This document shows positions 1-25,812 of a DNA stretch of 25,812 nt, piece by piece (within the stretch, counting starts at the first letter, position 1; every line of letters starts with the position of its first letter). The notes below the pieces were generated by a model. It was not told the origin of the DNA. It made no database searches and was given only the letters and a program-made list of their open reading frames with translations. The translations under genes were made by a program, and so were the position numbers. The stretch comes from a virus, in IMG/VR virus record IMGVR_UViG_3300006875_000143, positions 1 through 25,812 of that record. One strand, 5' to 3'.

Positions 1-529
1 CCTGGGCGGGACCGTTGGGGCTTCCACCAGAATGTCCGACAAGGAAGACTCTACGGCGGCGCTGGGGAACTCCAAAATATTGAGCGTCCAGGACTCGGTA
101 GGCCCACCCGTACCCGAGTTCAACCATCGCCCCGAGGATGGCGCCAAAGTCCCGTCCACCTCCAGACGACAAGACACCGGGGACGTTTTCCCACAGTATC
201 CATCGGGGACGTAGGACAGCGGCCAGCCGGACAAATTCCAGGGCGAGGTTTCCGCGCTCGTCGGATAGTCCGCCTCGGAGTCCGGCAACGCTGAAACTTT
301 GGCATGGCGTTCCTCCAACAAGGAGGGAAACATCTCCAATGTTCTGCTGCAACGCAGGGCTGCGGACAATGCGCGTGAAGTCACCAAGGTTGGGCACCTC
401 CGGGAAGTGGTGTGACAGCACTGCAGATGGGAACGGCTCAATCTCTGCCACGGCTGAGGCATGCCATCCCAGCGGATGCCACGCCGCGCTGGCCGCCTCG
501 ATGCCGCTGCAAACCGAAAGAAACCGCAT
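1..529 (-). CDS. DNA cytosine-C5 methyltransferase, N-terminal part (C terminus beyond left edge)
   Basis: Transfers a methyl group from S-adenosylmethionine to C5 of cytosine in a specific DNA site; in phages this usually protects the genome from host restriction. Reading the minus strand from ATG 529 gives 176 residues with no stop before the window edge. The C5-MTase motifs appear in order: motif I with SVCSGIEAASAAWHPLGW near residues 5-22, motif IV GGTPCQSFSVAG with the catalytic Pro-Cys near residues 75-86, motif VI WENV near residue 117, and motif VIII QRRRRVFLVG near residues 156-165. The target-recognition domain and motifs IX-X are missing, so the cut is by the window and not necessarily by mutation. 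The gene is last in a leftward operon, two bases after the stop of the 35-aa membrane peptide, with a GAGG about 11 bases before the start. Family assignment is very secure; the target sequence cannot be told. Confidence 0.95.
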   Translation of the reverse strand, partial: MRFLSVCSGIEAASAAWHPLGWHASAVAEIEPFPSAVLSHHFPEVPNLGDFTRIVRSPALQQNIGDVSLLVGGTPCQSFSVAGLRGGLSDERGNLALEFVRLAAVLRPRWILWENVPGVLSSGGGRDFGAILGAMVELGYGWAYRVLDAQYFGVPQRRRRVFLVGHSGGSPNGPAQ

Positions 530-531
530 GG

Positions 532-639
532 TCAACGGCGCCTCTCAAGCCAGATTGAAAACTCTACCAACACGGCGCCACCAACAGTGGCCAAGGCAAA
601 GACGACGGACCAGAAAAACAGCTCGTACTCAGTGGGCAT
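532..639 (-). CDS. 35-aa single-pass membrane peptide
   Basis: A very short gene read from ATG 639 to TGA 534-532. The product has an acidic polar start (MPTEYEL), one hydrophobic stretch of about 22 residues rich in V, A, F and G (residues 8-29), and a basic end (LERRR), so it should be an inner-membrane peptide. A strong GGGAGG lies 9 bases before the start. The stop of the upstream 74-aa gene is one base away and the methyltransferase start is two bases downstream, so it sits cleanly inside a translationally coupled operon. I do not recognise a family and give no function. The spacing, ribosome site and sensible membrane segment are the evidence that it is real despite its size. Confidence 0.6.
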   Translation of the reverse strand: MPTEYELFFWSVVFALATVGGAVLVEFSIWLERRR

Positions 640-6919: not shown

Positions 6920-8191
6920 ATGGCAACTGTTAACACGACTTCGACGATGACGGGGTTTTTCAAGGAGATTTACGCGCAGGAGGTGTTGGACCTCACCGCG
7001 CCCATTTTGAAGGTGAGCAACAAGATTAAGTTCACCGAGGCCACTATGGTGGGCAACAAGTACCACCAGCCGGTTGACGTGGCGCTCGAGCACGGCATCA
7101 CGGCGGCGGCCGCCAACAGCGGCGCGGTTTCGCTGCTGACGCCGGTTGCGTCCATTCTGCAGGACGCGCAGGTTGAGGGCGCGCAGATTTTCGGCCGCGC
7201 CCAGGTGGACTATGAGGCCATGTTCCGCGCCACCCAGGCCGGCAAGGCGGCTTTCGGTTCCGCCACCAAGCACGTTGTTAAGCGGCTGGCCACCTCGGTT
7301 GCCAAGCGGCTTGAGATTTCCATGCTGCACGGGCAGCGCGGCATCGGCGCTGTGACGGCCACCAGCGGCAGCTCCACGTCCCGCACCTACACCGTGTCTG
7401 ACGAGTCCTGGGCGGCTGGCATTTGGGCTGGTTCCGTCAACGCCACGCTGGACTTTTTCGCGGCGGCGCTGACCGGCAGCAAGCTGAACAGCAACGCGGC
7501 CGTGGTTGTGGCGTCCGTCAACATCAACAACAAGACCATCAGCGTCACCGGTAACGCCACTGACCTCTCGGCCATCGACACCGAGATTTCGTCCAACGGT
7601 TCCGCCAACGTCTTTTGGGAGACTTTCTCGCCGTCTACCGAAATGGCAGGACTGGATAAGATTCTGAGGAACACCGGCACGCTGTTCAACATCAACGCGG
7701 CCACCTACGAGGTGTGGAGCGGCAACCTCTACAGCTCGTCCACGGGCACGCTGTCCATGGGCAAGCTGCTGGAGGCGCTGGCCACCCCGGTGGCCTTCGG
7801 TGCCGAGGGCGACTACCTGGCGGTCGTCAGCCCGAAGGCGTTTGAGGTTCTGAACACGGACCTCGCCGCGCTGCGGATGCTTGATAGCTCCTACGGCAAG
7901 AAGGGCCAGAATGGCTTCGGGTCCATCACCTACTACTTCCAGAATGGGACGCTGGAGATTATGGCGCACCCGCTCCAGAAGGACGGCCTCTGCCACGTCT
8001 TCAACCCGTCCGAGGCCAAGCGCATCGGTGCGACGGACCTCACGTTCATCACCCGGCGCGGCTCCGAGGATGCGCTTATCCTTGAGCTGTCCGGCTCGTC
8101 TGGCGCGGAAATGCGCTGCTACGTCAACCAGGCCCTCTTTATCGAGGCGCCCCGGCGTACCAGCGTGCTTGCCGGCATCACCTACGCCTAG
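6920..8191 (+). CDS. Major capsid (coat) protein, HK97-fold type
   Basis: A 423-aa protein following the scaffold gene. The N terminus (FFKEIYAQEVLDLTAPILKV) and the KRLATSVAKRLEISMLHGQRG helix match coat proteins of podovirus-type phages, where this helix is the spine of the HK97 fold. Residues about 185-235 hold a beta-rich insertion (AVVVASVNINNKTISVTGNA), like the small inserted domains found in many coat proteins. The C terminus (ITRRGSEDALILELSGSSG, then QALFIEAPRRTSVLAGITYA) is beta-rich as expected. Codon use is strongly biased to C- or G-ending codons, more than in neighbours, fitting very high expression. GAGG lies upstream of ATG 6920, and a strong terminator follows the stop. Coat function is well supported by position, length and pattern. 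Confidence 0.88.
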   Translation: MATVNTTSTMTGFFKEIYAQEVLDLTAPILKVSNKIKFTEATMVGNKYHQPVDVALEHGITAAAANSGAVSLLTPVASILQDAQVEGAQIFGRAQVDYEAMFRATQAGKAAFGSATKHVVKRLATSVAKRLEISMLHGQRGIGAVTATSGSSTSRTYTVSDESWAAGIWAGSVNATLDFFAAALTGSKLNSNAAVVVASVNINNKTISVTGNATDLSAIDTEISSNGSANVFWETFSPSTEMAGLDKILRNTGTLFNINAATYEVWSGNLYSSSTGTLSMGKLLEALATPVAFGAEGDYLAVVSPKAFEVLNTDLAALRMLDSSYGKKGQNGFGSITYYFQNGTLEIMAHPLQKDGLCHVFNPSEAKRIGATDLTFITRRGSEDALILELSGSSGAEMRCYVNQALFIEAPRRTSVLAGITYA

Positions 8192-23137: not shown

Positions 23138-23357
23138 AGTAAATGAGGCCGGCCAGTGTCACGCTCGGCGGCATGCGCTCCACGCGCACGCAGCAGAGGC
23201 ACACGCCAGAGGCACCACGGCTGGAAAACCGCCATAGCGACTCGGCCACACGCTCGGCTCGGCCGCAGTAGCTATAGCGGCGGCCTGCCTCAAAAGCGTG
23301 CGTAATTCCGTCCCCGCGCCTGGGGATTCGCCATTCAATCTCAGGCATCCTCGCCAC
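23136..23357 (-). CDS. Small CxxC-type protein, 73 aa
   Basis: Last gene of the leftward recombination operon. The start is GTG 23357, or three codons later at ATG 23348; both overlap the end of the nuclease gene, and neither has a strong ribosome site, so coupling to the nuclease is likely. The product is Arg-rich and contains YSYCGRAERVAESLWRFSSR then GVCLCCVRVERM, giving Cys31, Cys53, Cys55 and Cys56, possible metal ligands. It ends in VTLAGLIY. No family recognised. Position suggests an accessory part in DNA processing, which is only inference. Confidence 0.6.
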   Translation of the reverse strand: MARMPEIEWRIPRRGDGITHAFEAGRRYSYCGRAERVAESLWRFSSRGASGVCLCCVRVERMPPSVTLAGLIY

Positions 23358-24534
23358 TCTTCTGCCGCCTTTCCTTAACCTCCAGCTTGCTTGTGGCTGT
23401 GATTCCGCCGAGCTGGGCCAGCCGGTCTATGATGGCCCTCTTTGCCGCTGCCAGCGTTGCCTTGCGTCCGGCTGCCTTCTCGGCGGCAACCCACTGGCGG
23501 CAAGCCTCCTCGATGCTGGACTTACTGGCGGTGAGCTCCACGGCTACATCAGCCGCCGCAGGCCCCAACACGTCCAGCGCGGCGGCGTGCGCCTTGCGGC
23601 CGTCCAGCGACTCGCGCACGGATTCAACCTCGGCCAGTACCCACCCACCCGGAAGGCTGACGGACTCCCGTGCGGCGTACTCCTTCAATGCGGCCTCTAC
23701 CCTGTCCAGCACAGCGCGAGCGTCCTTTATGCGCTGCCAGGCGGCGGCGGCCGTGGACTGGTCCAGCACCGGCACGTCCATCATTTCCGTGACCAGCGCG
23801 GCCTTGGCCGGACACACCGGAAATGCCGGGCAGTAGCGACACCACGGGCCTTCTTTTGGCGCCACTACCTGGGCCTCCACGAGCTCCCGGGTTTCAAGCA
23901 GCTGCTCGCGCACCGTGGCCAGTTCCAGCGCGTCCAGCGGCTCCAAGTCCAGCCATGCGCGGCCGTCCGAGGTGTCCACGCGCAAATGGCCGACCTCGGC
24001 CGCGTCCACGCCATAGACGCGGGCAAAGGCCAGCGCGAGGGCGCGTAACTGTCCAGAGGCGGCGGGGTTAGGGAGCCAGCCCCGGCCCGTCTTCACGTCA
24101 ATGACGTACACCACGCCGTCATGCACGCGCACCAGGTCTGCGGTGCCCACCACGGCGTTGCGGCCCCGGTGGCCGTAGCTTCGGGCTGCAGCGTCCAGCA
24201 CCTCGGCCGTGTCCTTGTCCATATCGTACAGGACCGCCGTTTCCGGCCTCCACCCGGCCTGTAGGTCCACGGGCCAATTGTCCGTGTCCAGCGCGAGGGC
24301 AGTTTCACGCAACTCGGGTGGCATCCGCTGGGCCGCCTCTGCCGGCGTGGCGCCTCGGGCTATGGCCTCCACATAGGCGTGCAGGGCACGGCCGGACTCT
24401 GCCCACGGCGACGATGGCGCCGTCACCTGCGGCAGCACGCAGGAGGTAGGGCAGGCCAGCGCCCGAGTCAACCCACTGGCGGTGGGCAGGCGCGGCCGGT
24501 GGCGCTCGCGGGCGAGGGATGCGTCCTGGCTCAT
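23341..24534 (-). CDS. PD-(D/E)XK nuclease, RecB/Cas4-like with Fe-S cysteines (DUF2800-like)
   Basis: A 397-aa exonuclease candidate that would make single-stranded DNA for the annealing protein next to it. His52 (RALHAYVEAI), Glu98 (WRPETAV), Asp133 (GTADLV) and Asp146/Lys148 (VIDVKTGRG) form the PD-(D/E)XK core. Cys28/Cys32 in LACPTSCVL lie before the core, and Cys242, Cys245 and Cys251 in WCRYCPAFPVCPAK after it, the split arrangement that holds a 4Fe-4S cluster in AddB- and Cas4-type nucleases. The pattern matches phage DUF2800 proteins. The C-terminal third is helical (SKSSIEEACRQWVAAEKAAG). Its ATG overlaps the ERF gene's stop (ATGA), indicating coupled synthesis. Confidence 0.88.
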   Translation of the reverse strand: MSQDASLARERHRPRLPTASGLTRALACPTSCVLPQVTAPSSPWAESGRALHAYVEAIARGATPAEAAQRMPPELRETALALDTDNWPVDLQAGWRPETAVLYDMDKDTAEVLDAAARSYGHRGRNAVVGTADLVRVHDGVVYVIDVKTGRGWLPNPAASGQLRALALAFARVYGVDAAEVGHLRVDTSDGRAWLDLEPLDALELATVREQLLETRELVEAQVVAPKEGPWCRYCPAFPVCPAKAALVTEMMDVPVLDQSTAAAAWQRIKDARAVLDRVEAALKEYAARESVSLPGGWVLAEVESVRESLDGRKAHAAALDVLGPAAADVAVELTASKSSIEEACRQWVAAEKAAGRKATLAAAKRAIIDRLAQLGGITATSKLEVKERRQKSGEDA

Positions 24535-25199
24535 GCCTGCCCCCGCAGTTCCTTCTGGCGGCTAGCAAACGCCTTGCGCACCTCTGGCACGGCCGTAACG
24601 CCCAACTGCTTGATGATGCGGGTTGCCGCCTGCAGGTCTTCCGGGGTGCCGCACTCGGCAATTGCCAGTAGGGCACGCTCCATGGGGTCCGGCTCAGCCG
24701 AAGCAGGCGCGGCCGGCTGTGGTGCTGGCGTGGGTACGGGTTGGGGCGCGGGCTGCTCGCGCATGGGCTGGCGCCGCTGCACGGGCGGAAGCACCGGAGC
24801 GCTAGGACGCGTCCCGGCCTCTCCGTCGTCATCATCCTGGGCAATACCCACCAGCGCGGCCAGAGAGTAGCGCCGGGCATAGGTGAGCGCCGAGCCGTAG
24901 CCCTGCGGCGTCTTCTGGGCAACCGGCATCTGCAAGTCAGAGGACACCCACTCCCCAGAGGCATGCGCGAGGATGGACCGCACGCCCACCATGCCCTCGG
25001 CCTGCGTTACCTGCTGAATGACGGACAGCCCGTTAGCCGCCAGCGGCTCACGGATAGCGGACCAGACGGCGGCCAGGTCCGCATATCGCGTCTTGAAGTG
25101 GGGGTTTGTGGCGTCCTTGGTTGCAAACGTCATTTGGCCCTGCGCCTTAGCGAGTGCGGCAGCCAGGGCGGCAATGCTGGCGCTCATGCTGTCACCCAT
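24531..25199 (-). CDS. erf: ERF-family single-strand annealing protein
   Basis: Anneals complementary single strands in phage recombination, often for genome circularisation. The 222-aa product has the ERF opening (LAKAQGQMTFATKDATNPHF, KTRYADLAAVWSAIREPL), a middle with GVRSILAHASGEWVSSDL, and the hallmark GYGSALTYARRYSL (residues 100-113) followed by an acidic DDDDGE. A Pro/Ala/Gln linker (about residues 131-170) joins a small C-terminal helical piece (ATRIIKQLGVTAVPEVRKAF). Start ATG 25199 is backed by GGAGG six bases upstream and overlaps the 45-aa gene by eight bases. It precedes the PD-(D/E)XK nuclease in one operon, a classic exonuclease/annealase pair. Confidence 0.9.
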   Translation of the reverse strand: MGDSMSASIAALAAALAKAQGQMTFATKDATNPHFKTRYADLAAVWSAIREPLAANGLSVIQQVTQAEGMVGVRSILAHASGEWVSSDLQMPVAQKTPQGYGSALTYARRYSLAALVGIAQDDDDGEAGTRPSAPVLPPVQRRQPMREQPAPQPVPTPAPQPAAPASAEPDPMERALLAIAECGTPEDLQAATRIIKQLGVTAVPEVRKAFASRQKELRGQA

Positions 25200-25329
25200 T
25201 GGCCACCTCCAGCCCGGCCTTGCTGGCCAGCTCGGCCAGTGCAGCGGTCAGCCGCTCCAGCGCAACCTTTTGGCGGTGGACCTCAAGGGACAACAACTCG
25301 ACGGCTTCAACGGCGTTGATGGGTTCCAC
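25192..25329 (-). CDS. 45-aa helical protein, first gene of the recombination operon
   Basis: Starts at GTG 25329, four bases after GGGGAGG, and ends at TGA 25194-25192, overlapping the ERF start. The whole product reads as one amphipathic helix (INAVEAVELLSLEVHRQKVA then LERLTAALAELASKAGL), probably a coiled-coil oligomer. No family recognised. It is the promoter-proximal gene of the operon with ERF and the nuclease. It may serve partly as a coupled leader peptide, or act with ERF; neither is shown by the sequence. Confidence 0.65.
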   Translation of the reverse strand: MEPINAVEAVELLSLEVHRQKVALERLTAALAELASKAGLEVANG

Positions 25330-25346
25330 AGTGCCTCCCCGGCAGC

Positions 25347-25363
25347 GGGGGCGAAATGCCCCC
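25347..25363 (-). promoter_or_regulatory. Short GC hairpin at the 5' end of the recombination mRNA
   Basis: GGGGGC (25347-25352) and GCCCCC (25358-25363) pair perfectly around a five-base loop. With transcription predicted to begin near 25367, the hairpin would sit only a few bases from the 5' end and about ten bases ahead of the ribosome site. 5'-terminal hairpins protect mRNAs from decay in some systems. Confidence 0.5.
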
Positions 25364-25373
25364 AGCGGCGGCG

Positions 25374-25402
25374 TAGATAGTCCGTTGCGCGTAACGTGTC
25401 AA
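25374..25402 (-). promoter_or_regulatory. Sigma70-like promoter for the recombination operon
   Basis: On the minus strand, a perfect TTGACA (25402-25397) is followed by 17 bases and TATCTA (25379-25374), a 3/6 match to the -10. AAAAA (25419-25415) lies 12 bases upstream of the -35. The start would be near 25367, about 38 bases before GTG 25329. The layout closely repeats the promoter at 912-940. Confidence 0.55.
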
Positions 25403-25405
25403 GGC

Positions 25406-25439
25406 TTGCGCTTCTTTTTGTTGCGCGCTATGTAGCGCG
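25406..25439 (+). promoter_or_regulatory. Rightward promoter with palindromic operator candidate
   Basis: TTGCGC (25406-25411), a 17-base spacer and TATGTA (25429-25434) form a weak rightward promoter. A 16-base perfect palindrome, CGCGCTA-TG-TAGCGCG (25424-25439), covers the -10, where a bound repressor would block RNA polymerase. It lies 30 bases before the ribbon-helix-helix-like gene, fitting autoregulation. Three copies of TTGCGC (25385, 25406, 25421) cross the divergent promoter region. Confidence 0.5.
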
Positions 25440-25469
25440 TGCCGGGCTAGTCCGGCCAAAGGGGACAGC

Positions 25470-25679
25470 ATGAAAATCGAACTGCCGAACCGACGTAAGC
25501 ACAGCAACCTGACAGTGCGGGCTGACCAGCCTTTTCTTGAGCGGTTGGATGCGCTGCTGTCCAGCTACAAGCGGCGGTGGCCCACCGAGGCCCCGCATAT
25601 GTCCCGCAGCTGGCTGGTGACGGAGCTTCTGAACGCGGCCATGACGGACGCCGAGGCCGAGTTGGAGGCCCGCAAGTGA
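25470..25679 (+). CDS. Ribbon-helix-helix-like DNA-binding protein, 69 aa
   Basis: A small basic protein transcribed away from the recombination operon. HSNLTVRADQPFLERLDALL (residues 11-30) reads as the short beta strand followed by helix 1 of a ribbon-helix-helix domain, and SRSWLVTELLNAAMTDAEAE (residues 45-64) as helix 2 with the common SRS(W)L turn. RHH proteins bind DNA as dimers through the strand pair, normally at short palindromes; one lies directly upstream. AAAGGGGA precedes ATG 25470. It probably controls itself and perhaps the divergent operon. The family call is by pattern, so it is likely but not certain. Its stop overlaps the next GTG by the usual GTGA. Confidence 0.65.
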   Translation: MKIELPNRRKHSNLTVRADQPFLERLDALLSSYKRRWPTEAPHMSRSWLVTELLNAAMTDAEAELEARK

Positions 25680-25812
25680 GCGTCCGAGGGAAGCGGGCAG
25701 TGTCTATTGCGGCGCTGGGGACTGTGAATCTTCCGGCTCGACAGGCCGAGGTTTACGAGTTTGTTCGTCAACACCCGTACCACACCGCGCTGGAGCTGGA
25801 GAACATGAGCGG
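25676..25812 (+). CDS. Hypothetical protein, winged-HTH-like N terminus (cut by right edge)
   Basis: Opens at GTG 25676 in a GTGA overlap with the preceding gene, with GGAGG seven bases upstream, and stays open for 45 codons to the window edge. The start is basic (VSVRGKRAVSIAALG), followed by LPARQAEVYEFVRQHPYHTA and LELENMSG, which resembles the first helices of a winged helix-turn-helix (the pattern of a helix ending in a ...HP..T..EL turn). It would be a second regulator or replication initiator in the same unit as the RHH-like protein. Too little is present to name a family. Confidence 0.6.
   Translation, partial: MSVRGKRAVSIAALGTVNLPARQAEVYEFVRQHPYHTALELENMS

Follow-up and report, generated by a model that had tools for sequence, protein, structure and literature searches.

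The DNA considered here is the IMG/VR record of an uncultivated phage, which we analysed over its entire length of 25,812 bases (henceforth the window) and which we take to be a fragment because the genes at both of its ends run off the sequence. Close to its right end a 138-base intergenic stretch lies between two divergently oriented sets of genes (Table 1). On the leftward side are a small ORF and the genes for a single-strand annealing protein and an exonuclease; on the rightward side the gene for a 69-aa putative DNA-binding protein is followed directly by a second gene (gene 2), only the N-terminal 45 residues of whose product are encoded within the window. A preliminary description had interpreted the intervening stretch as a control region for divergent transcription, the recombination genes lying on its leftward side, and this interpretation is supported both by the ERF/exonuclease layout and by the presence of the same layout in three kin loci, two of which are closely related.

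Table 1. Genes and candidate control elements at the right end of the window
Feature	Position	Strand	Remarks
PD-(D/E)XK exonuclease	23341..24534	-	
ERF-type single-strand annealing protein	24531..25199	-	
First leftward ORF, 45 aa	25192..25329	-	GTG start preceded by GGAGG
Leftward promoter, to recombination genes	25374..25402	-	TTGACA (25402-25397), 17-base spacer (25380-25396), TATCTA (25379-25374)
GTTGCGCGTAAC	25384..25395	.	10/12 bases palindromic; in leftward promoter spacer; contains first TTGCGC; candidate operator, from sequence and the GTTGCGCG repeat
Putative rightward promoter	25406..25434	+	TTGCGC (second copy), 17-base spacer, TATGTA (25429); weak
GTTGCGCG (25420) + GTAGCGCG (25432)	25420..25439	+	one strand, spaced 12 bases; the record's only such pair by the GTTGYGCG-like pair measure
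Palindrome CGCGCTA-TG-TAGCGCG (CGCGCTATGTAGCGCG)	25424..25439	.	7/8 pairs complementary; centre is the putative rightward -10 TATGTA (25429-25434); candidate operator
Near-palindrome GCCGGGCTAGTCCGGC	25441..25456	.	7/8 pairs; at the inferred rightward transcription start; adjoins the first palindrome; overlooked in the preliminary description
69-aa putative DNA-binding protein	25470..25679	+	RHH-like by eye; predicted strand-strand-helix-helix
Gene 2	25676..25812	+	GTG start overlaps the preceding gene's stop; runs off the window

Promoters, repeats and palindromes in the intergenic stretch

All promoter ranks given here rest on general sigma-70 weights. With these weights the leftward promoter ranks third among all sites in the record and the putative rightward promoter 623rd; the latter is only third even among the rightward sites of the region, the top one of which (25448-25477) overruns the start codon. 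A scan of positions 25190-25500 with a stricter consensus returned no promoter on either strand, a result that counts against both promoters, and no terminator was found in the same interval. The two -35 boxes are separated by 3 bases, and since the inferred leftward start near 25367 and the rightward one near 25441 lie about 74 bases apart, two polymerases would crowd each other anyway. The predicted leader of the leftward transcript contains a hairpin, GGGGGC-ATTTC-GCCCCC as read leftward (25347-25363), immediately ahead of the 45-aa ORF's ribosome-binding site, which could serve in the tuning of translation.

The hexamer TTGCGC had been noted three times on the plus strand, and all three copies are indeed there (25385-25390, 25406-25411 and 25421-25426), with the first two 21 bases apart and the first situated, again as described, inside the spacer of the leftward promoter. 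Across the record this hexamer occurs at background frequency (50 copies against 46 expected). Among 2000 local shuffles, 35 contained three copies of any one hexamer within 42 bases, and the record as a whole has 12 such triples, compared with 2.06 in shuffles. The TTGCGC copies differ in their roles: the first is part of the leftward-spacer near-palindrome, the second would serve as the rightward -35, and the third flanks the main palindrome on its left. Given that one copy is a putative -35 and that the wider repeat is GTTGCGCG, TTGCGC itself is probably not the recognition unit. The longer repeat is found as GTTGCGCG at 25384 and 25420, as GTAGCGCG at 25432 and as GTTACGCG at 25388 on the minus strand. 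Allowing at most one mismatch, GTTGCGCG is counted four times in the window (P 0.002 against local shuffles); at two mismatches this excess is gone (P 0.16). The motif was derived from the window's own sequence, and its choice, like that of the 12-base spacing, was made after looking. By the one-mismatch counts, here and in the kin, the GTTGCGCG-type repeat is better supported than the TTGCGC copies.

The 16-base palindrome that had been placed on the rightward -10 is likewise present, centred on the putative TATGTA. Palindromes with 7-base arms and a loop of 0-6 bases number 23 across the record (21.2 in shuffles), and shuffling the 138-base intergenic stretch 2000 times produced one in 210 cases; from this count and that for the hexamer triple it follows that each observation is weak singly, both being modestly rarer than chance. 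A search of all viral contigs with the exact 16-mer matched two stretches, which we judge to be no more than chance would give for a sequence of this length. The occurrence of two 16-base near-palindromes within 138 bases is less expected (P 0.013 against local shuffles) and holds for 0.7% of the record's windows of that size. Over the full record, 16-mers in which 7 or more of the 8 pairs match show no enrichment (15, compared with 18.7 in shuffles), and by the same measure they are absent from the corresponding control regions of three related records. Taken together, these figures bear on the reading that the palindromes and TTGCGC copies are chance products of GC-rich DNA around two ordinary promoters, to which nothing binds specifically. 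The ease with which shuffling produces such a palindrome, the background frequency of TTGCGC and the lack of enrichment or counterparts in the kin all speak for it, but a single 138-base stretch combines two adjoining near-palindromes with a unique 12-base repeat pair, and we hold this account to be doubtful.

Comparison with related records

One relative, L003, has a terminase and a portal protein identical to those of the window, and the overlapping ORFs listed are at least 96% identical. It reaches 2.9 kb past the window's start and there encodes an HTH protein, a replication initiator, RusA and a cytosine methyltransferase; the gene for this cytosine DNA methyltransferase (L003 2241-3413, extending into window 1-535) lies on the minus strand among plus-strand genes. 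More distant kin share the exonuclease, namely L017/L018 (a single 33,961-base record), L022 and L024, whose enzymes are 44-47% identical to that of the window. The exonucleases of L022 and L024 are 94% identical to each other, and these two records are close relatives rather than independent witnesses. In L017, L022 and L024 a small gene diverges from the exonuclease-bearing recombination operon, and in L017 a replication initiator is encoded further along the strand of the small gene. The annealing protein of L017 is RecT-like and is matched by L022 and L024 over part of its length. The common operon slot for the annealing protein is occupied by an ERF-type protein in the window (24531-25199) and by this RecT-like protein in L017 (9508-10467), and the two show weak C-terminal similarity (E 3e-5 and 0.008), as if the annealing core alone had been swapped. 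An excisionase-like gene and an integrase sit between the small gene and gene 2 in L017 and L022; L024 starts just 66 bases past the small gene, so the gene order beyond this point covers L017 and L022 only. Beside the integrase gene of L017, positions 7323-7379 resemble by eye the 5' part of a tRNA with its anticodon arm, and ARAGORN calls no tRNA there; this is perhaps an attachment site.

Few further relatives of this phage group turned up in the searches made here. A blastn search of 23300-25812 against phages matched 95 records, and among the 20 listed all matches fell within the annealing-protein gene; the search with the annealing protein yielded one distant relative (L002). Genome scans with exonuclease alignments confirmed no relative, and the sole return of a scan with the L003 replication protein was L003's own contig. 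L019 and L025, distant relatives by way of the annealing protein or the exonuclease that were read in part, were excluded from the control-region counts because the genes upstream of their recombination genes run, by eye, in the same direction. The comparison of control regions accordingly comprises four: those of the window, L017, L022 and L024.

All four regions (4/4) have a TTGACA promoter with a 17-base spacer directed toward the recombination genes, which by the sigma-70 weights ranks second in L017 and in L022 and first in L024, beside its third rank in the window. Repeats of the type described above also recur. With at most one mismatch, GTTGCGCG is found four times in L017 (P 0.01), twice in L022 (P 0.046) and three times in L024 (P 0.045), and with two mismatches the corresponding P values are 0.02, 0.08 and 0.12. 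L022 and L024 contain GTTGTGCG repeats spaced 12 bases; a similar pair in the window faces the other way with respect to the recombination genes. The window, L022 and L024 each have one pair of GTTGYGCG-like sequences on the same strand with this 12-base spacing, in every case inside the control region (mean 0.05-0.15 in 20 shuffles of each), and none occurs in L017, L018 or L003. An alignment of L022 with L024 is identical in 50 of 56 columns over the GTTGTGCG repeats and the promoter and in 28 of 61 on the adjacent small-gene side, gap columns being counted as different and the borders of the 56-column block having been set after looking. Further out, 21 of 23 and 32 of 40 columns are identical on the small-gene side and 31 of 42 beyond the promoter; the block therefore exceeds its one neighbour, yet other stretches are conserved as well. 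An inverted repeat around CACTGAACG...GTCAGT, not seen in the window, lies ahead of the small gene in both L022 (3732-3751) and L024 (401-420).

A LexA (SOS) box was considered as a candidate in L022 and L024 and rejected. With the Myxococcus consensus CTRHAMRYBYGTTCAGS (PMC9705874), which may differ from that of the host, none of the best six sites in the window lies in the control region. Sites with three mismatches to this consensus are present in every record, and those of L022 and L024 are no better than background; one of the three listed for L024 is in its control region (402-418).

The 69-aa protein and its counterparts

Searches with the 69-aa protein recovered no family in Pfam (E up to 10), PHROGs (up to 0.1) or NCBIfam (up to 10), no match among PDB sequences (E up to 5) and no relatives in viral_contigs, phages, plasmids or the records of L002-L006. 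A structural model from the single sequence (mean pLDDT 72) predicts strands at residues 2-7 and 12-17 and helices at 22-36 and 46-68. This order of elements, modelled with moderate confidence, fits RHH, and by eye the N-terminal strand and the last helix, which starts with SRS, resemble the RHH pattern. No clear fold emerged from comparison of the model using Foldseek and VIA-align 2; among the fold matches listed none was named as an RHH protein, which does not in itself indicate a different fold. The RHH label appears plausible. The small proteins of the kin have no detectable relation to it (hhalign probability 0.3%), and the L017 small protein, modelled from an alignment of three sequences, consists of three helices with no strand, the confidence being low at the N-terminus and the best match in fold comparison having an E of 6.8. 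Hence, an operator shared with the kin would have to be either a coincidence or an element read by another protein.

The second of these options leads to the view that the control region is real and that its repeats serve a different regulator, the gene 2 product being the most likely candidate and a host factor the alternative, while the small protein acts elsewhere. Gene 2 does have relatives where the small proteins show no detectable relation (51% over 41 aa with E 8e-7 in L017; weakly, with E 0.012, in L022), and the GTTGYGCG-like pairs are found in the window, L022 and L024. Against this, the window encodes no more than the first 45 residues of the gene 2 product, gene 2 is present in L017, which lacks the 12-base pair, and the gene 2 product is DNA-binding as read by eye, its PHROG family being one of unknown function. 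We consider this view unlikely. At the other extreme, the 69-aa protein might found an unrecognised phage repressor family in which tandem near-palindromes over the -10 and a third site in the opposite spacer would balance recombination against replication, and whose slot would be filled in the kin by unrelated proteins reading a similar repeat; this strikes us as quite improbable.

Proposed mode of control and known systems

We favor the reading that the stretch is a divergent early control region of an ordinary kind, in which an autoregulatory operator overlies the rightward promoter, and to this reading we assign a probability of roughly one half. Starting from the letters, the gene layout and the similar leftward promoter in the kin, which are directly observed, we infer the further elements, namely the rightward promoter, the protein fold, binding, repression and dose dependence. 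A good sigma-70-type promoter would drive leftward expression of the small ORF, the ERF annealing protein and the exonuclease, and a weak one rightward expression of the 69-aa putative DNA-binding protein and gene 2. The two adjoining near-palindromes would span the rightward -10 and start region, and the 69-aa protein most likely binds them as paired dimers, thereby repressing its own unit. At a higher dose of this protein the near-palindrome in the leftward spacer may allow repression of the recombination genes too. We regard autorepression of the rightward unit as the most probable mechanism and an extension of it to the leftward promoter as possible. The preliminary description had suggested that one regulator could switch between the two directions. 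A true bistable switch, in which one protein on the leftward spacer site and the palindromes would set recombination and the rightward unit as alternatives, is highly improbable, for although GTTGCGCG copies lie in the leftward spacer and beside the rightward -10 and the -35 boxes are 3 bases apart, both units look early (recombination on one side and, on the other, replication genes carried by L003, whose sequence overlaps the opposite end of the window), early functions are usually expressed together in phages, and the place beside the small gene held by the integrase in L017 and L022 is taken by gene 2 in the window (which with L003 forms a partial genome). The main outcome at present is an ordinary divergent promoter hub, the leftward promoter of which has similar counterparts in the kin.

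The favored reading invites comparison with three known systems. The autorepression of the P22 Arc/Mnt type offers the likeness of a small putative strand-helix-helix protein encoded beside palindromic sites over its own promoter; however, the half-sites here differ from those of Arc and Mnt, and RHH membership here is putative. In the RHH autorepressor AmrZ, the amrZ1 operator has GGC half-sites with a 5-base linker (PMC3325190). Like GCGC-TATGTA-GCGC in the window, it consists of two half-sites on either side of an AT-rich linker in the promoter of the protein itself, whereas the half-site and linker are different, and AmrZ, compared through the PDB sequence search only, gave no match. The divergent early region of lambda, in which pL is directed toward recombination and pR toward a small regulator and replication, provides the third parallel. 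The window differs from it in that its promoters stand back to back without an intervening repressor gene, and in that no CI- or Cro-like gene was recognised among the proteins scanned here. With regard to promoter strength, the leftward promoter is good and kin-like and the rightward one weak, the stricter scan having found neither. In lambda one repressor binds operators at both promoters; the window has sequence repeats at both. The layout of the window is lambda-like in that the recombination operon lies on the left and diverges from a regulator/replication unit on the right, to which the small putative regulator and gene 2 belong; replication genes are found in L003 and, further along, as the replication initiator of L017, the stretch between the window's end and the start of L003 lying outside the data. 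If true, the proposed arrangement would represent a compact, testable case of phage early control with back-to-back promoters.
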